Positions 8,941 through 18,943 of a stretch of 40,310 nt of DNA are shown here, one piece after another. The notes below the pieces were generated by a model that had not been told where the DNA came from, made no database searches, and saw only the letters and a program-made list of their open reading frames with translations. The position numbers and the translations under genes are program-made. The stretch spans positions 1 through 40,310 of the forward strand of contig JAUYFG010000047.1 of assembly GCA_030690985.1 (NCBI GenBank). The letters are read 5' to 3'. Each line of letters opens with the position of its first letter. The stretch's first letter is position 1. This DNA comes from Pseudomonadota bacterium. Lineage in GTDB: Bacteria > Pseudomonadota > Gammaproteobacteria > Burkholderiales > Thiobacillaceae.

Positions 8941-9677
8941 GGGAAGAACTGCCCATCCTCTACCGCGACGACTGGCTGATTGCTGTCCACAAGCCTGCCG
9001 GCTTGCTGGTGCATCGCAGTGATCTGGATCGCCACGAAACCCGCTTTGCCCTGCAAATCCTGCGCGACCAGATCGGTCGCATGGTGTGGCCGGTGCATCG
9101 GCTCGACAAAGGCACCTCCGGGGTTTTGCTGTTCGCCCTGGATCGCGATGTGGGGCGGGCCTTGAACGGCCAGTTCGAGCGGGGAGAAGTCGATAAAACC
9201 TACCTCGCCGTGGTGCGCGGCCATCCGCCGGAAAGCGGCGAGATCGACCACCCGCTAGCGCGCATGGCGGACGAACATGCCGGCATCGTGGGCGGTCCGG
9301 CACAAACGGCGCTGACCCGCTACCGGCGTCTCGCCACGGTGGAGTTGCCGTACCAGGTGGATCGCTACCCGAGCAGTCGCTATGCCCTGATGGAACTGAA
9401 GCCGCTCACCGGCCGCCGGCACCAGTTGCGCCGCCACCTGAAGCACATTTCCCACCCCATCATCGGCGATGCCACCCACGGCAAGGGGCGCCATAACCGG
9501 CTGTTTCAGGCCTTGTTCGGGTGCCGGCGACTGTTGCTGGCAGCGACGGAGATGCGCCTGAGCCATCCGATCAGCGGTGAGGCGCTGCACCTGGCGGCGC
9601 CGCCGGCCGAGGATTTCATGGCCGTGTTGGAACGGCTTGGCTGGCGTGTCGGGCATCTTGGCGGCGGATTCAAGTAA
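8937..9677 (+). CDS. RluA-family pseudouridine synthase, TruC-like (tRNA pseudouridine 65 synthase)
   Basis: LYRDDWLIAVHKPAGLLVHRS, PVHRLDKGTSGVLLFAL, ELKPLTGRRHQLRRHLKHISHPIIGD; GTG start overlaps the zwf stop (GTGA). Confidence 0.87.
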
Positions 9678-9789
9678 CGCCGGCCTTTTCAACGGCGCGC
9701 AAATACAGAAGTCGCCGGAATCCGGTGGTGAGTTGGGTTTGATGATCGGCCGGGTCTTTACTGTGCGTAGAGGCGAAGGGGCAATGAGT

Positions 9790-9801
9790 GGGGGGGGGGG
9801 G
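9790..9801. repeat. Homopolymeric G12 tract
   Basis: agt-GGGGGGGGGGGG-cga read directly; about 285 bp upstream of hsdM. Confidence 0.9.
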
Positions 9802-10084
9802 CGACTTACGACACGGAAGCGATGTCCAGGCTACACCGTCATGACGGTCAGCTACCTGGTATCGAGCCGTCGTTGAAATAATTGAGGCGGATGCCGGGTC
9901 ATCGGCCGGAACTGCCTGTTGCCCAGACGGGGCTGAATGTAAGAAATGTCCTGCCAGCAGTCTTTCGTCTGTTGTGCGTGGCCGCTGGCCCATGGCTCCA
10001 ACCTAATAATCAGGCCTCGTCCTACCAGGTAGCGTGAATACAATGCGCGCTTGGCTTAGATCGGCTATTCGTAACAACGAGAAC

Positions 10085-12229
10085 ATGACCCCAACCAACT
10101 TCCAGCAACTCGCCAACTTCATTTGGTCCGTGGCCGACCTGCTACGTGGCCCTTACCGTCCTCCACAATACGAGCGGGTGATGCTTCCGCTCACGGTGTT
10201 GCGTCGCTTCGATTGGGTACTGGAGCCTACCAAGGAGGCCGTGCTCAGAAAACACGCTGAACTCACGGCCAAGGGGCAACCCAACATCGATGCCATCCTG
10301 AACAATCTGGCCAAGGATGAAGATGGCAAGCCGCTGGGTTTTCACAATCACAGCCAACTCGATTTCCGCAAGCTCAAAGGCGACCCGGACAACATTGGCC
10401 GCCACCTCGCCGACTACATCAACGGTTTCTCCGAGAACATCCGCAAAATCTTCGAGCGCTTCGAGTTCGAGAAGGAAATTGAAAAGCTCGAAGAAGCCAA
10501 CCGCCTCTATCAGGTCGTTGCGCAATTCGCCGAGATGGACTTGCATCCCAAGCGGGTGGACAACATCACCATGGGCCTGGTGTTCGAGGATCTGATCCGC
10601 CGCTTCAATGAAGCCGCCAACGAAACGGCCGGTGACCACTTCACCCCGCGCGAGGTCATCCGGCTCATGGTCAACCTGCTGCTGGAACCCGATACCAAGG
10701 TGCTCACACAGGAAGGAATCATCGTCACCATCTGCGACCCGGCTTGCGGCACCGGTGGCATGTTGGCCGAGGCGCAGAACTGGATTCGCGCCCATAACGA
10801 GCACGCCACCGTCAAGGTTTACGGCCAGGATTACAACCCGCGCTCTTACGCTGTGGCCGCTTCCGACTTGCTCATCAAGGGTCACAAGGACAGCCAGGTC
10901 GCACTTGGCAATACGCTCACCGATGATCCTTTTCCTAACAATCATTTCGACTATCTGCTGGCCAACCCGCCTTTCGGGGTGGACTGGAAGGCCGAGAAGA
11001 AGATCATCGACCGCTGGCCCAACTTCCGTGGCTATAACGGCAAGCTGCCGCGCATCAACGATGGTGCTTTGCTCTTCCTGCTCTACATGATGAGCAAGTT
11101 CCAGGACTACGCGCCCACAAAGGATGGAAAAACGCGTGAGAAGCCCGGCTCGCGCACCGCCATCGTCTTCAACGGTTCGCCGCTTTTCACCGGCGGCGCG
11201 GGTAGCGGCGAAAGTGAAATCCGCCGCTGGATCATCGAGCGAGACCAATTGGAGGCCATCGTCGCGCTGCCCGAGCAGATGTTCTACAACACCGGCATCG
11301 GCACCTTCATCTGGGTAGTCACCAACCGCAAGGCAGCCCACCGCAAAGGCAAGATCCAACTCATCGACGCCCGCGAACGCTGGACGCCGATGAAACGCAG
11401 CCTGGGGGACAAGCGCCGCTACCTGGACCAGGCCGCGATCGACGGCATCACCCGCGAACACGGCGCGATGGACAGCAGCACCACCAGCCGAGTGTTCGAC
11501 AACACTGATTTTGGTTATCGCCGCATCACCGTCAACCGTCCACTGCGCCTGCGTTTTCAGCTCACCGCCGACGCTAAAGATCGTTTCCTCAACACCTGCC
11601 CGGAACTCTACGATGCCCTGCAGGCCGTGGAAGATGCCCTGGGCGCCGAGCCCCAGTTCGATTGGAACAAAGCTTGGGAAAAGGTACAAAAGACCTTCAA
11701 GCGCCTGCCTGACGACGTGGAAGCCTGGACGCCCGGAGCCAAGGGCACGGCCCAGAGGAAGATCTTCCGCGAATGCTTCACCACGGTAGACCCCGAGGCC
11801 GAGGCCGTGATTGCCAAGCACACCAAGGTCGATGCTTTGGACGACGAGGCCCTGTTTCCCCAACCGATCATGGTGGATGGCCTCAGCGACGACGCCCTGC
11901 ACGCACTGCTGGGCCTGCATGCTGATGGCAAGGGCAAACACATCGAGTACGAGGCCGACCCGGCGCTTAAAGACACAGAGAACATCCCGCTCAAGGAAGA
12001 CATCGTCAGCTACTTCTTGCGCGAAGTGCGGCCCTATGTGGCCGATGCCTGGATCGACCGCGAGACGCTCGACGAACAGGACGGCGGCATCGGCAAGGTC
12101 GGCTACGAGATCAACTTCAACCGTGAGTTCTTCCAGTACAAGGCGCCGCGCCCCTTGAAGGAGATTGATGCTGAATTGGCCGGTGTAGAGAAGCGGATAT
12201 TGGACTTGCTGCGCGAGGTGACGGAGTGA
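10085..12229 (+). CDS. hsdM: Type I restriction-modification system DNA methyltransferase subunit M
   Basis: DPACGTGGMLAEA (SAM motif), LLANPPFG (NPPF catalytic motif), HsdM N-terminal domain (MTPTNFQQLANFIWSVADLLRG). Start at ATG 10085. Confidence 0.95.
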   Translation: MTPTNFQQLANFIWSVADLLRGPYRPPQYERVMLPLTVLRRFDWVLEPTKEAVLRKHAELTAKGQPNIDAILNNLAKDEDGKPLGFHNHSQLDFRKLKGDPDNIGRHLADYINGFSENIRKIFERFEFEKEIEKLEEANRLYQVVAQFAEMDLHPKRVDNITMGLVFEDLIRRFNEAANETAGDHFTPREVIRLMVNLLLEPDTKVLTQEGIIVTICDPACGTGGMLAEAQNWIRAHNEHATVKVYGQDYNPRSYAVAASDLLIKGHKDSQVALGNTLTDDPFPNNHFDYLLANPPFGVDWKAEKKIIDRWPNFRGYNGKLPRINDGALLFLLYMMSKFQDYAPTKDGKTREKPGSRTAIVFNGSPLFTGGAGSGESEIRRWIIERDQLEAIVALPEQMFYNTGIGTFIWVVTNRKAAHRKGKIQLIDARERWTPMKRSLGDKRRYLDQAAIDGITREHGAMDSSTTSRVFDNTDFGYRRITVNRPLRLRFQLTADAKDRFLNTCPELYDALQAVEDALGAEPQFDWNKAWEKVQKTFKRLPDDVEAWTPGAKGTAQRKIFRECFTTVDPEAEAVIAKHTKVDALDDEALFPQPIMVDGLSDDALHALLGLHADGKGKHIEYEADPALKDTENIPLKEDIVSYFLREVRPYVADAWIDRETLDEQDGGIGKVGYEINFNREFFQYKAPRPLKEIDAELAGVEKRILDLLREVTE

Positions 12230-13536
12230 ACGCCACGGAGCTACTCGCCACACTCCCTGATAACTGGAGCCGAGTGCCACTGAAGGCTGCTTGCTACTAC
12301 ACGGTAAGCAATGTGGATAAGCACTCCATTGATGGCGAGTTGCCAGTTCGACTCTGCAACTACACCGATGTCTATAAGAATGACCGGGTATCTCCGGACA
12401 TGGACCTTATGGTGGCCACCGCCACGAAGGAGGAAATTGATCGCTTCCGCCTTAAGGTAGGTGATGTTGTTATCACGAAAGACTCGGAATCGTGGGACGA
12501 CATCGCTATACCTGCCTACGTGGAGGGAACCGCTGATGATTTTGTGTGCGGATACCACCTCGCGTTTATTCGTCCAGATAAAAATGTTCTAGACGGGCGC
12601 TTTCTATTCCGTTGCATTCAGTCCAGACCAGTGGCACTCCAACTGGAGCTAGAAGCGACAGGCGTGACGAGATACGGACTGCCCAAAGGGGCCATAGGCT
12701 CCGCTTTGCTGCCGTTACCTCCGTTGAGCATCCAAAGTCAGATCGCCGACTACCTCGACCTCGAAACTGCCCGCATCGACGCACTGATTGCCGAGAAGGA
12801 ACACATGCTTGCGCTGCTGGAAGAAAAGCGCGCTGCACTTATCAGCCGCGTTGTCACCAATGGCCTCGACCCCGATGTGACGATGAAGTCATCGCGGATG
12901 CAGTGGCTCCCCTCTGTTCCCGCAGCTTGGGATGTTTGTCAGCTGAAGCGGACCTGGGCTTCATCCGACTACGGCTTATCGGAGAGCATTCGCGATGAAG
13001 GCGATATCGCAGTGCTTCGGATGAGTTGCATCGTCGATGGCAGAGTCGATGTCACAAAAGCGGGAACAATCACGCAGGTTGATGAATCGCTACTACTTCA
13101 GCGAAACGACTTGCTTTTCAATCGAACAAACAGTCTCGACCAAATTGCAAAGGTGGGGGTCGTTGACTTTGATCCGGAAAATCCTTTGACCTTTGCGTCT
13201 TACCTTGTACGACTTCGCGTGAATAATCGCGCTACACCTCACTATCTTGTCTATCTGCTGAACTCAACCCAGTTTTTGGAATACGCGCGCAAGAACGCCA
13301 TCCCTGCTATCGGCCAGGCTAATCTGAGCCCGACGCGCTACGGCGAAATCCATATCCCCCTTCCGCCAGTCGACGAGCAGGAACGAATCGTTCGCTTTCT
13401 TGACGACGACGCCAAGACCGCCAATCCGATCCGCAAACACATTCGTCGGTCATCTGAACTGCTCAAAGAGCGCCGTGCTGCCCTGATTACTGTCGCCGTC
13501 ACCGGCCAAATTCCGCTGGTGGAGATGGCAATATGA
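12226..13536 (+). CDS. hsdS: Type I restriction-modification specificity subunit S
   Basis: Two TRDs separated by conserved spacer (LPPLSIQSQIADYLDLETARIDALIAEKEHMLALLEEKRAALISR..., IPLPPVDEQERIVRFLDDDA); GTG start overlaps hsdM stop by 4 nt. Confidence 0.93.
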   Translation: MNATELLATLPDNWSRVPLKAACYYTVSNVDKHSIDGELPVRLCNYTDVYKNDRVSPDMDLMVATATKEEIDRFRLKVGDVVITKDSESWDDIAIPAYVEGTADDFVCGYHLAFIRPDKNVLDGRFLFRCIQSRPVALQLELEATGVTRYGLPKGAIGSALLPLPPLSIQSQIADYLDLETARIDALIAEKEHMLALLEEKRAALISRVVTNGLDPDVTMKSSRMQWLPSVPAAWDVCQLKRTWASSDYGLSESIRDEGDIAVLRMSCIVDGRVDVTKAGTITQVDESLLLQRNDLLFNRTNSLDQIAKVGVVDFDPENPLTFASYLVRLRVNNRATPHYLVYLLNSTQFLEYARKNAIPAIGQANLSPTRYGEIHIPLPPVDEQERIVRFLDDDAKTANPIRKHIRRSSELLKERRAALITVAVTGQIPLVEMAI

Positions 13537-14909
13537 AACTGCAACGACTCACGCTCGCCAACTTCCGGGGGTTCGACCAAATCGAGCTCGATATCGCCAC
13601 CGACGTTACTGTGATAGCCGGCGTTAATGGTGTTGGTAAGTCCGGTGTGCTGAAAGCCTTGGCGAGTGCGATGTCCTTGGCACTTCCACGATTTACTGCG
13701 TCTACCGAGGTCCCGCTTGGGCTGGCTGATACCGATGTTCAATTCAGCAAGGCGGGGCTGTCCTTGTCTGCCGAGCTCAGTCTTGATGCAGCAGATATCT
13801 ATATCGACATCACCAGAGCCGCACCACTAGAAAAAGACAAGGCTGAAGCCCTACTTAAGCGCCGTGATGATTTGCGGTTCGCAACCCGCGAAACCAAGAA
13901 GGGTTCCAAGGAAGAGCAGGCGATTAATGACGACATTCGCTTGATTGATCTGCAACTGGCCCCAGTGAGCGATGTACCGGTAGTCCGTATCCTACCCAAG
14001 AGCCCAGACATAGTTCCAGAGGAAATCTGCGCAAAGGGTAAGGTCAGCAATGTGCAACCAATTGCGGTGTTCTACTCGACCGCCCGCTTTTTCTCACGTT
14101 TGCCTCCGGTCCTGCCAAAGACAAAATCAGTAGACCTCGCTGCTGCCTACGATAAGGCACTTAATCAGATGGAGGTTTCGCTGAATGACTTTGCCAACTG
14201 GTATCGCGTCCTCGTCGACGATAAACCGCCTGAATTAACAACAAGGATGTTTCAGCAACTTGAAGCGGCGGTCAGTGTCTTTTTGCCTGGCGTCTCTAAC
14301 CTCCAGATCCACGCTGACCGCCCCCCACGTTTTAGTGTCGATAAAAATTGCAGCCACTTTTACCTTGAGCAACTATCAGACGGCGAGCGTGGACTGTTGG
14401 CCCTGGTCTTCGACCTGACTCGCCGCTTGGCCATCGCCAACCCGAACAGCAACAACCCGATTGCCGAGGGCGTGGCGTTGGTAATGATTGACGAGATAGA
14501 GCTGCACCTGCACCCCAAGTGGCAGCGCCAAGTGTTGAGACGGCTGCGCGATGCCTTTAAGAATTGTCAGTTTGTCGTAACGTCGCATTCACCCCAAGTA
14601 ATCGGACAAGTGCGCCCAGAAGCGCTTCGACTATTGCATCACGATGCATCGGGAAAGGTCACCTTGGTCCCAGTGGCGCAATCATTTGGCATGGATAGCA
14701 ACTGGATTCTGCAAAACGTGATGGGCGTTCCAGCACGTGATTATGAAACCGAGCAGCGGCTTTCGACAATTTATCAGGCGATTGACGAAGGCAAGCTCCA
14801 AGATGCGCGAGCGCTTGCCGAGAGCCTGCGGTCGGATATCGGCGATTTTCCTGACCTGCAAGAGGCGCTTGCATTGTTAGACCGGTTCGAGCTATTGGGG
14901 AGCGAATGA
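13533..14909 (+). CDS. AAA/SMC-like ATPase (AAA_21 type), PtuA-like
   Basis: MKLQRLTLANFRGFDQIELDI, Walker A GVNGVGKS, signature LSDGERGLLALVFDL, Walker B VALVMIDEIELHLHPKWQ, H-loop FVVTSHSPQVIGQ; overlaps hsdS stop by ATGA. Confidence 0.88.
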   Translation: MKLQRLTLANFRGFDQIELDIATDVTVIAGVNGVGKSGVLKALASAMSLALPRFTASTEVPLGLADTDVQFSKAGLSLSAELSLDAADIYIDITRAAPLEKDKAEALLKRRDDLRFATRETKKGSKEEQAINDDIRLIDLQLAPVSDVPVVRILPKSPDIVPEEICAKGKVSNVQPIAVFYSTARFFSRLPPVLPKTKSVDLAAAYDKALNQMEVSLNDFANWYRVLVDDKPPELTTRMFQQLEAAVSVFLPGVSNLQIHADRPPRFSVDKNCSHFYLEQLSDGERGLLALVFDLTRRLAIANPNSNNPIAEGVALVMIDEIELHLHPKWQRQVLRRLRDAFKNCQFVVTSHSPQVIGQVRPEALRLLHHDASGKVTLVPVAQSFGMDSNWILQNVMGVPARDYETEQRLSTIYQAIDEGKLQDARALAESLRSDIGDFPDLQEALALLDRFELLGSE

Positions 14910-15577
14910 GGCGAATCACAAAGACACATGCACCCCAGGAACTGCTGAACTGGTGCCATGAGAACAAAGACCTCAACCACACCTACAAAGACCTGTTGGG
15001 GACAAAGGCACATGCCGTACTCAAGGAGAAACTCATTGAGGAGCAGGGCGCACTTTGTGCCTACACGGGTCGAGCCATAGCGGACGCCACGTCACATGTG
15101 GAGCACTTAAAGCCGCAAAACCAATGCGTGGGGTGGGAAGACGTTGAATACAGGAACGTTGTTGCCTGCTTTCCTGCAGATGGGGGAGATACCTCGCATG
15201 GATACGGTGCACCGGTAAAAGCAGGATGGTGGGATGAAGCAAAATTCGTTTCACCAGTGGCGGAAGATTGCGAGCGGCGGTTCCGCTTTGCATGGAGTGG
15301 ACATATCCATCCATGTCCGGATGACCATGAGGCGGCCAAAAAAACAATCAAGATTCTTGACCTAGATAACAAAGATCTACGGGATCTGCGTAAAGCACGA
15401 ATCGATGGTTTTTTCGGATTCGGTGCAAGAACCAGAAATCGACCGCTTTCAGTTGCTGACGCCAAGACGGCACTCGAAAACATTGATCGCGTAGACTCCT
15501 CCGGGCGCCTCCGAGAATTCTGCTTTGTGCTGAAACAATTGCTGCCAAAGTACATCGCGCAAGAGGGTGGACGATGA
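14906..15577 (+). CDS. HNH endonuclease, TIGR02646/PtuB-like
   Basis: EQGALCAYTGRAIADATSHVEHLKPQ HNH core followed by YRNVVACFPADG; 4-nt overlaps with the upstream ATPase and downstream hsdR. Confidence 0.78.
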   Translation: MRRITKTHAPQELLNWCHENKDLNHTYKDLLGTKAHAVLKEKLIEEQGALCAYTGRAIADATSHVEHLKPQNQCVGWEDVEYRNVVACFPADGGDTSHGYGAPVKAGWWDEAKFVSPVAEDCERRFRFAWSGHIHPCPDDHEAAKKTIKILDLDNKDLRDLRKARIDGFFGFGARTRNRPLSVADAKTALENIDRVDSSGRLREFCFVLKQLLPKYIAQEGGR

Positions 15578-18500
15578 CTAAGAGAACCAGCGAAGCCGCC
15601 TTCGAAACAGCCATCGAATCCGTTTTGCTGACGAATGGCTACACCCGCGTAGACGGCAACAGCTTCGACCGTGAACGGGCCATCTTTCCGGCTGAGGCGC
15701 TGGCCTTTATCCGGGAAACCCAGCCCAAGGTGTGGGAGAAGCTGGAAGCCCTGCATGGCGATCAAACCGGCGAGCGGGTGCTGGAATCGCTGTGTAAATG
15801 GCTGGACACCCAAGGGGCGTTATCAACCTTGCGCCACGGCTTCAAGTGCTTCGGCAAAACGCTGCGCATAGCTTTTTTTCGCCCGGCGCATGGGCTCAAT
15901 CCAGCTCTGGCGGCGCGCTACCAGGCCAACCGGCTTGGTCTGACCCGGCAACTGCATTTCAGCTCCAAGAACGAGAAATCGCTGGATGTGGTGTTGTCGG
16001 TAAACGGCGTGCCATTGGTGACGCTGGAATTGAAGAACCCGCTTACAGGTCAAATGGTGGCTAACGCCATTCATCAATATCGCCACGACCGCGATCCGCG
16101 CGAGCTGATATTCCAGTTCACCAAACGCACACTGGTGCATTTTGCGGTGGACACGGAAGAGGTGCATATGACCACGCGCCTCGCCGGCTCTGGCACCTAT
16201 TTCTTGCCCTTTAACCGTGGCAACCATGGCGGGGCTGGCAATGAACCCGACAAGGCCGGCCGTAACTACAAGACTGCGTACTTGTGGGAAGAAGTCTTGC
16301 AGCGTGACAGTTTGCTGGATTTGTTGGCGCGCTTCCTCCATCTGGATGTTCGAGAGAATATCGCCGAGGACGGTAAAAAGGTGCGCAAGGAAATCATGAT
16401 CTTTCCGCGCTATCACCAGCTTCAAGCCATGCGCCAAATTGTGGGGGCTGCCGCTTCCGAAGGGGTGGGCCATAACTACCTGGTCGAACATTCGGCGGGT
16501 AGTGGCAAGAGCAATACGATTGCTTGGCTGGCGCACCGGCTTTCGTCGCTGCACAACGAAAAAGACGAGCGGATTTTCGACAGCGTGGTGGTGATCACGG
16601 ACCGCGTGGTATTGGACCGGCAGTTGCAGAACACGATTTACCAGTTTGACCACCGCCAGGGCGTGGTGCAGAAGATTGACGAGGATTCGCGGCAACTTGC
16701 CGAGGCGCTTGAATCCGGTGTGCCGATCATCATCACTACTTTGCAAAAGTTTCCGTTTGTTTCTGGCCAGTTGATGAAGCTCGCCGAGGAGCGCGGCGAA
16801 GGCAGCCGCAGCCATCTGCCAACCCGCAAATACGCGGTGATCATCGACGAAGCGCACAGCTCGCAGTCGGGTGAAACCGCCACCGAGTTAAAGGGTGTGC
16901 TGGGCGGCGCCGAATTGCGCAAGAAGGCGCAGGAAATGGCCGAAGAAGAAGGCGAAGTTGAATTGGAGCGGCTGTTTCGTTCAATGGCCAAACGCGGCCA
17001 CCAGCCCAACATGAGTTTCTTCGCGTTTACCGCCACGCCCAAACATAAGACGCTGGCAATCTTTGGTCGTAACGGCGAGCCCTTCCACCGCTACACGATG
17101 CGTCAGGCCATTGAGGAGGGTTTCATTGAGGACGTCTTGCTGAACTATGTGACGTACCAAACCTACTACAAGCTGATCAAGAAGGCCGAGGACGACCCCA
17201 ATGTCGAGCGCAAGAAGGCCGCGAAGGCGCTCGCCAGATTCATGCGCCTGCACCCGCACAACATCGGCCAGAAAACCGAAGTGATGGTTGAACATTTCCA
17301 GCAGTTCACCCGCCACAAGATCGGCGGCCATGCCAAGGCCATGGTGGTGACCGGTTCACGGTTGGAGGCGGTCCGCTACAAGCAGTCATTCGATGAATAC
17401 ATCGCCGAGAAGGGCTACCCGATCAAGAGCTTGGTAGCTTTTTCGGGAACCGTGGAAGACGACAAGCTGGCCGAGAAAACCTACACCGAAGTCGAAATGA
17501 ACGCTGGGGTAAAAGAAAAAGAGTTGCCCGACACATTCGCCAAGCCTGACTACCGCGTGTTGTTGGTGGCTGAGAAATATCAGACCGGCTTTGACCAGCC
17601 ACTGTTGCACACCATGTACGTAGATAAACGGCTCTCCGGTATTCAAGCCGTGCAGACACTCTCGCGCCTGAACCGCACTCATCCGCTCAAGGACGAGACC
17701 TTCGTGCTTGATTTCGTGAATGACCCGGCAGAGATTCAGGAGGCCTTCCGCCAATACTACGAAGGCTCAGTGATGGGCGAGCAGGTGGACCCTGACAAGC
17801 TCTATGAGGTGAAGGCTGAGCTAGACGCTTCGGCCATCTATCTGCATACCGAGGTTGACGATTTCGCGAAGGTATTTTTTGCCCCAAAGCGCCGCCAGAG
17901 CACGTCAGATCACAAGACCATGAATGCAATACTTGACCAAGCGGTCGCGCGTTTTACGCAGTTGCAAGCCAGATCAGAGGAGGAGGCTGATTTGTGGCGG
18001 GGCAAGACACAAGCCTTCAGAAACCTATACAGCTTTCTTAGCCAAGTGATTCCATATCAGGACAGCGATCTTGAGAAACTGTTCACCTATTTGCGCCATC
18101 TTGCTCTGAAGCTGCCAAAGAGAAAAACTGGGCCGGGTTACCAATTCGACGAGGAAGTTGAGTTGGATTACTACCGGCTGCAGAAAATCAGTGAAGGTTC
18201 TATTAGCCTCAATGAGGGCTACATCAAGCCGCTGGATGGCCCGCGAGAAGTAGGTACCGGCATGGTGCGCGAGGAGCACGTCTCGCTGTCACGTCTAATC
18301 GACATCATCAATGAACGCTTTGGTGGTGAGTTGAATGAAGCTGACCAATTATTCTTCGATCAGATAGCAGAAGCAGCCAGCAAGATCGAGGCATTACAGA
18401 AGGCAGCGGCGGTGAATTCATTGGACAAGTTCCAGCTTGTGTTCAGGCAAGCGCTAGAGGCGTTGTTCATCGAACGGATGGAACTGAACGAGGCGCTTTT

Positions 18501-18609
18501 CACTGACTATATGGGCAAGCCAGACTTGCAGGAGCTGGTTTCCAAGTCACTGGGTAGCCAGATTTATTACCGGTTATCCGCGCCGAAGAAGAGCCATTTG
18601 CCGCCGTAA
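15574..18609 (+). CDS. hsdR: Type I restriction-modification endonuclease subunit R
   Basis: 1011 aa; VTLELKNPLTGQ (PD-ExK-like), EHSAGSGKSNTIAWLAHRL (Walker A), VIIDEAHSSQSG (DEAH), FFAFTATPKHKTL, YQTGFDQPLLHTMYVDK. Confidence 0.95.
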   Translation: MTKRTSEAAFETAIESVLLTNGYTRVDGNSFDRERAIFPAEALAFIRETQPKVWEKLEALHGDQTGERVLESLCKWLDTQGALSTLRHGFKCFGKTLRIAFFRPAHGLNPALAARYQANRLGLTRQLHFSSKNEKSLDVVLSVNGVPLVTLELKNPLTGQMVANAIHQYRHDRDPRELIFQFTKRTLVHFAVDTEEVHMTTRLAGSGTYFLPFNRGNHGGAGNEPDKAGRNYKTAYLWEEVLQRDSLLDLLARFLHLDVRENIAEDGKKVRKEIMIFPRYHQLQAMRQIVGAAASEGVGHNYLVEHSAGSGKSNTIAWLAHRLSSLHNEKDERIFDSVVVITDRVVLDRQLQNTIYQFDHRQGVVQKIDEDSRQLAEALESGVPIIITTLQKFPFVSGQLMKLAEERGEGSRSHLPTRKYAVIIDEAHSSQSGETATELKGVLGGAELRKKAQEMAEEEGEVELERLFRSMAKRGHQPNMSFFAFTATPKHKTLAIFGRNGEPFHRYTMRQAIEEGFIEDVLLNYVTYQTYYKLIKKAEDDPNVERKKAAKALARFMRLHPHNIGQKTEVMVEHFQQFTRHKIGGHAKAMVVTGSRLEAVRYKQSFDEYIAEKGYPIKSLVAFSGTVEDDKLAEKTYTEVEMNAGVKEKELPDTFAKPDYRVLLVAEKYQTGFDQPLLHTMYVDKRLSGIQAVQTLSRLNRTHPLKDETFVLDFVNDPAEIQEAFRQYYEGSVMGEQVDPDKLYEVKAELDASAIYLHTEVDDFAKVFFAPKRRQSTSDHKTMNAILDQAVARFTQLQARSEEEADLWRGKTQAFRNLYSFLSQVIPYQDSDLEKLFTYLRHLALKLPKRKTGPGYQFDEEVELDYYRLQKISEGSISLNEGYIKPLDGPREVGTGMVREEHVSLSRLIDIINERFGGELNEADQLFFDQIAEAASKIEALQKAAAVNSLDKFQLVFRQALEALFIERMELNEALFTDYMGKPDLQELVSKSLGSQIYYRLSAPKKSHLPP

Positions 18610-18943
18610 ACTGTGCCATTGCTGTGCTTGTCGCTCGACTTAATTGCGAGAAGCCTGTTCCGGCCGAAGTGCAGGATGTCTCCATGCTTTCGCGAACGTC
18701 GGCTACCTGGGTTGCTGCTGACGTTCATTTCTCGAACTTCAGTGATCCGCGAACGGCAGGAACTGGCCGCGATCTCAGTCAACCAAACCTCTCATCCTAT
18801 CAACCATCAATCACGGCGAGCAAAGTCCCGGAAACCCCTTGCGCGCGCGTAGGCGTTCACCGGTCAGCTTATTCAATACCAAGCCCGTGCTTCTGTGACA
18901 TCGGCGGGCTGTGCCCTGACAGGCGCGGTTTTCCGGAACTCCA

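Follow-up and report, generated by a model that had tools for sequence, protein, structure and literature searches.

The 40,310-nucleotide window that we analyzed (contig JAUYFG010000047.1 of assembly GCA_030690985.1, from a bacterium of the Thiobacillaceae) carries a type I restriction-modification (R-M) operon, hsdM-hsdS-hsdR, with an ATPase gene and an HNH nuclease gene, ptuA and ptuB, embedded in it. The window's PtuA lineage occurs solely in hsd operons within the genomes sampled. By analogy, we propose that the operon may encode a complete type I R-M enzyme together with a dedicated abortive PtuAB module that is coupled to it and would work like PrrC, a reading to which we give roughly even odds (about 0.5).

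PtuAB within a type I R-M operon

By their open reading frame (ORF) coordinates, hsdM, hsdS, ptuA, ptuB, and hsdR form one run on the + strand, and the genes overlap by 4 nucleotides at all four junctions (GTGA at 12226 and ATGA at 13533, 14906, and 15574). An initial annotation of this DNA had described five continuous genes with these overlaps, and its coordinates and overlap letters were all confirmed. The features are as follows.

9650-18935, no strand: inserted segment with the whole five-gene operon (empty sites in the same genus; G+C contrast)
10085-12229, + strand: hsdM (Pfam N6_Mtase, 3.7e-51; HsdM_N, 7.4e-25)
12226-13536, + strand: hsdS, two target-recognition domains (Pfam Methylase_S in two stretches; PADLOC Specificity_I, 7e-105)
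13533-14909, + strand: ptuA, whole, 458 residues (ORF; PADLOC PtuA)
13533-14606, + strand: ptuA ATPase core, residues 1-358 (the part tracking HsdM and HsdR)
14616-14909, + strand: ptuA C-terminal tail, residues 362-458 (similarity drop against loci L029 and L030; tail-PtuB correlation)
14906-15577, + strand: ptuB, HNH nuclease, 223 residues (PADLOC PtuB, TIGR02646, predicted fold, alignment)
15574-18609, + strand: hsdR (Pfam HSDR_N, SWI2_SNF2, and T1R_D3-like)

By profile, motif, and predicted fold, the pair inside the operon is PtuAB, the Septu system. PtuA matches the PADLOC model PDLC00271 over residues 1 to 456 (E = 9e-112), and PtuB matches PDLC00346 (E = 1e-59) and passes the NCBIfam TIGR02646 cutoff (68.5 versus 52.15 bits). 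This agrees with the PtuAB architecture that the initial annotation had suggested, with these same families as the check. The retron PtuA model NF041760 gives 237.9 bits, below its cutoff of 500. The motifs quoted at the outset are all present in the translations (GVNGVGKS, LSDGERG, VMIDEIELHLHPKW, and SHSP in the ATPase, CAYTG...SHVEHLKPQ in its partner). In PtuA, Walker A lies at residues ~30-37, the signature at 281-287, Walker B at ~317-321, and the H-loop at 351-354. In the PtuB alignment, C51, Y53, E66, H67, and N84 are invariant, with H67 and N84 as the expected catalytic H and N. The top Protein Data Bank sequence matches of the pair are solved PtuA and PtuB chains. AlphaFold models of the two proteins have a mean predicted local distance difference test score of 87 (PtuA) and 83 (PtuB). 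The PtuA model resembles 8eea, 9e90, and others, the PtuB model resembles 8eea_G (E = 2.7e-9), and the two models match PtuAB of Septu 8eea and of retrons Ec78 and Ec83. Since the template modeling scores are only moderate (about 0.5-0.8), these are matches at the level of the fold.

The R-M genes carry the features of a type I enzyme: HsdM has the motifs of an N6-methyltransferase (DPACGTG at ~10736, NPPF at ~10964), HsdS has its recognition domains, and HsdR has nuclease and translocase motifs (nuclease PLVTLELKN at ~16012, GSGKS at ~16498, DEAH at ~16846). HsdR scores under the TIGR00348 subfamily cutoff (215 versus 285 bits), yet its defining domains are present. Translation of hsdM might start at GTG 10034, upstream of ATG 10085. 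A run of ~12 G at 9790-9801, intergenic and ~285 bp upstream of the hsdM ATG, might reflect phase variation or an artifact of assembly.

In two genomes of the same genus, G025 and G021 (loci L148 and L149), the M23 peptidase gene comes immediately after the pseudouridine synthase gene, and the ~9.3 kb of the window's operon segment is absent between them. The entire unit was therefore gained, or lost, as one. Its G+C content is 0.52-0.59, versus 0.61-0.64 in the flanks. We looked for a tRNA integration site and found no tRNA within the window.

Distribution of hsd-embedded ptuAB

A scan of 85k species genomes with a PtuA alignment yielded 80 loci, and 16 of these carry ptuAB within an hsd operon, invariably between hsdS and hsdR and on the same strand (a few of the 16 end at contig ends). 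Adding the window, a Ketogulonicigenium vulgare plasmid (from the only family of plasmid records that proved informative), genome G372, and five loci from a second, phylum-level sample brings the total to 24 distinct loci of identical order, slot, and strand. The named organisms belong to five phyla: Pseudomonadota, Gemmatimonadota, Cyanobacteriota, Acidobacteriota, and Chloroflexota. Translational overlaps are kept at most junctions. The five-gene arrangement is far above chance, and its recurrence rules out an isolated insertion.

In a tree of 89 PtuAs, 16 hsd-embedded rows, including the window's, form one clade with a Shimodaira-Hasegawa-like approximate likelihood ratio support of 100 and no stand-alone member (0/16). 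Two further PtuA lineages, L057 and L058/L060, reached hsd separately. The hsd and stand-alone labels change 3 times on this tree, versus 17.4-17.5 times when shuffled, and none of 500 shuffles was as low. In a class sample, seven PtuAs match at E ≤ 1e-40; three of them, the strongest three, are hsd-embedded. In the phylum sample of 398 genomes, all seven close matches (E ≤ 1e-45) are hsd-linked; the seven include the window itself, one (G598) and L030 are a single locus, and in two a contig end or an insertion sequence interrupts the operon ahead of hsdR. The hsd clade has T55, R286, G287, and G358, residues that 36 stand-alone sister PtuAs lack or seldom carry; the sisters mostly have LSDGEK in place of the LSDGERG signature (R286/G287).

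The HsdR type of the window, defined at E ≤ 1e-200, is carried by 20 of 369 genomes, and ptuAB fills the slot in 3 of these 20. The remaining slots hold an OLD-like ATPase, a D12 methylase/SLFN set, DUF3800, YhcG, IrrE plus DUF4411, RelBE, or SLFN proteins, or are empty. The placement exactly between hsdS and hsdR in the initial annotation holds; what it missed is this other cargo in related operons. All three hsd-linked PtuA lineages lie in one HsdR clade, where the PtuAB share is inflated because most tree rows were found via PtuA. Nested inside the same clade are L129, with a D12 adenine methylase and an SLFN/AlbA protein in the slot (L129:6902-11931), and L130, with an OLD-like ATPase that has a weak TOPRIM match (L130:3789-5708).

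Several loci have further peculiarities. Genes of 332 and 874 residues lie between ptuB and hsdR in L164 (4566-8181), cargo stacked in the same slot. In L163 (~1000-1884), an apparent transposase-bearing insertion interrupts ptuB some 40 residues in, and the upstream genes (hsdS, ptuA, and the part of hsdM present) are still open. L029 (4368-8718) has a 633-residue gene near the 3′ end of hsdM and then a 93-residue hsdM piece, with 4-nucleotide overlaps at the joins. The window's genome has another, divergent ptuA-like gene on the - strand at L021 (7439-8767; genome G000, contig C281). It has a ptuB-like neighbor, lies between housekeeping-like genes, and is apparently split over two frames (314 and 115 residues).

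Exchange of the PtuA tail with PtuB

The five-gene picture of the initial annotation hides a mosaic. Sequence comparison indicates that the tail, the last ~100 residues of PtuA, is exchanged together with PtuB, the crossover falling within PtuA codons ~310-360, and that the ATPase core is co-inherited with HsdM and HsdR. Compared with L029 and L030, the window's PtuA is mostly 50-90% identical over residues 1-340 and 25-40% identical beyond ~360; PtuB is 25-26% identical, though HsdR is 83-88% identical. The window's PtuB is closer to the PtuBs of distant operons (37-41%) than to those of its nearest relatives. The DNA of L034 resembles L033 (80-91%) over the first ~300 codons of ptuA and from there on, across the tail and ptuB, resembles L031/L032 (mostly 64-88%). 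L165 and L167, which share a family code, have HsdRs 90% identical, PtuA tails 19-29% identical, and PtuBs 30% identical. L012, compared with L042 and L056, is another case of exchange. For the clearest cases only, we reject rapid divergence of PtuB as an explanation, because the window's PtuB is closer to distant operons and L034 switches partner inside ptuA.

Identities across 13 loci point the same way. The PtuA core correlates with HsdR (r = 0.68) and HsdM (r = 0.75), the tail correlates with PtuB (r = 0.82; partial 0.81 given the core), and the correlation of PtuB with HsdR is weak (r = 0.26, p = 0.06). The core tree and the tail-plus-PtuB tree contradict each other, and the conflicting groupings are highly supported in each. 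PtuBs from hsd loci are spread over several lineages of the PtuB tree, intermixed with stand-alone PtuBs, and match differing PADLOC PtuB models. The middle of PtuA (residues 61-262) likewise occurs as distinct types.

Proposed coupling to the R-M enzyme and comparison with known systems

Its exclusive linkage to hsd and its inheritance along with HsdM and HsdR make the ATPase core stand out as the R-M-tied part, and the free exchange of the tail with PtuB marks these as the effector. We reasoned that the core would be the coupled, sensing part and that the tail would dock PtuB, the HNH effector. HsdMSR, or DNA or ATP states under its control, most likely would hold PtuAB latent. A phage that disables or evades the restriction enzyme would release PtuAB, and freed PtuB would cut an essential nucleic acid, tRNA or DNA, and abort the infection. 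There are two precedents for such a latent module: PrrC is kept silent by its linked type Ic R-M enzyme until phage Stp frees it (PMC2610378), and the toxic PtuAB of retron-Eco7 is neutralized by reverse transcriptase (RT)-msDNA (PMC11555353). The co-inheritance of the core with HsdM and HsdR fits PrrC-like coupling, and the hsd-only clade, the conserved overlaps, the insertion as a unit, and the presence of three lineages in one slot also argue for coupling. As to the target, tRNA-Tyr is the substrate for the PtuABs of retron-Eco7 and Septu EcB88, tRNA is not a target for that of retron-Eco4 (PMC11555353, PMC13096335), and a review has PtuAB degrading phage DNA (PMC12198126). Since characterized PtuABs differ in this way, the target of the window's PtuB is not readable from its family, and the term "DNA-cutting" analogue of PrrC in the initial annotation is unsupported.

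Several observations weigh against PrrC-like coupling. Related hsd operons hold unrelated cargo in the same slot (DUF3800, RelBE, SLFN/AlbA, YhcG, OLD-like), so coupling does not follow from the position by itself. The independent lineages L057 and L058/L060 look like stand-alone PtuA, correlated trees can also arise from linkage and co-transfer, and both contact between HsdMSR and PtuAB and gating of the pair are inferred. The hsdS-hsdR junction might instead be a preferred co-expressed docking site, and PtuAB an independent Septu that gains only shared expression and transfer. The other cargo of relatives and its replacement inside the PtuAB-HsdR clade (L129 and L130) speak for this. However, such a passenger is expected outside hsd as well, where this PtuA clade is not found in the genomes sampled, and free movement is seen for PtuB but not for the PtuA core; we consider it unlikely. 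The same linkage and coupling data would also suit a positive link, in which HsdMSR on unmethylated phage DNA, or the DNA ends it makes, recruits or activates PtuAB, which would then compound the damage done by restriction instead of serving as a backup. The PrrC homologue RloC is switched on by DNA breaks (PMC12707154), and DNA cleavage by retron-Eco8 is reported for the holocomplex and not for the effector alone (PMC12887533). Yet PrrC, the best-studied hsd-embedded ATPase-nuclease, works in the opposite way, silenced by R-M (PMC2610378), and a positive link seems to us quite improbable.

PrrC-like coupling could extend to a class of guards, and we put this forward tentatively, at somewhat less than even odds. 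A fixed PtuA-core sensor, tied to one HsdMSR subfamily, would carry a plug-in tail and nuclease cassette whose target changes with each swap. Recombination in the conserved stretch between Walker B and the H-loop might exchange the cassette, much as recognition domains are swapped in HsdS, and its weapons might be drawn from the wider Septu pool. If PtuAB is gated as proposed, this would be a second, widespread, and independently built answer to PrrC's problem, punishing phages that disarm restriction. The trigger of Septu is listed as "Unclear" (PMC12198126), and the hsd-locked PtuA lineage points to a concrete candidate regulator. Cassette exchange provides ready-made natural chimeras for the role of the PtuA tail and the choice of PtuB between tRNA and DNA.

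Defense genes between hsdS and hsdR are already known. DarTG2 and other cargo of the RRDM island (PMC12255303) occupy the same insertion slot; these are unrelated genes, with no reported exclusive linkage of an ATPase lineage with effector exchange. Restriction-linked orfs in Campylobacter are a known hsd embedding (PMC2610378), and Septu embedded in Hma systems is also known, as cited in PMC12255303. In the literature searched, an hsd-exclusive PtuA clade and exchange of the tail with PtuB are not described; a guilt-by-embedding preprint (Payne 2024) lies outside that search. MADS is rejected by curated cutoffs (MAD2, 57 versus 720; MAD3, 37 versus 420; MAD5, 23 versus 400 bits). PARIS (AriA/AriB), which pairs an ATPase with a nuclease and has been called an R-M guardian (PMC12707154), is rejected for its weak sequence match, and AriB is a Toprim nuclease.

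Type I-A retrons (Eco7/Ec78, Eco4/Ec83) give the best structural matches, and their PtuAB is likewise a toxic effector held by a partner, which in the window would be HsdMSR. Their PtuA has ~542-550 residues versus 458 here. We found no RT domain in the operon genes or the neighbors scanned, and there is no room for msr-msd because ptuA overlaps hsdS and ptuB overlaps hsdR; a retron is rejected. Septu shares the order of a PtuA ATPase followed by a PtuB HNH protein, with profiles and folds that match solved PtuAB. Unlike Septu, the window-type PtuA is embedded in and, as sampled, confined to a type I hsd operon, and its core forms a clade with residues of its own (T55, R286/G287, G358). PrrC of EcoprrI is likewise an ATPase-nuclease within a type I operon, but it is a single polypeptide with an ABC ATPase and an anticodon nuclease triad, whereas the window has two proteins and an HNH nuclease in the hsdS-hsdR slot. 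The likeness would be one of mode of working only. PrrC orthologues are "invariably linked" to R-M (PMC2610378), and the PtuA clade has the same invariable type I linkage, in 16 of 16 rows and in 7 of 7 matches of the second sample.

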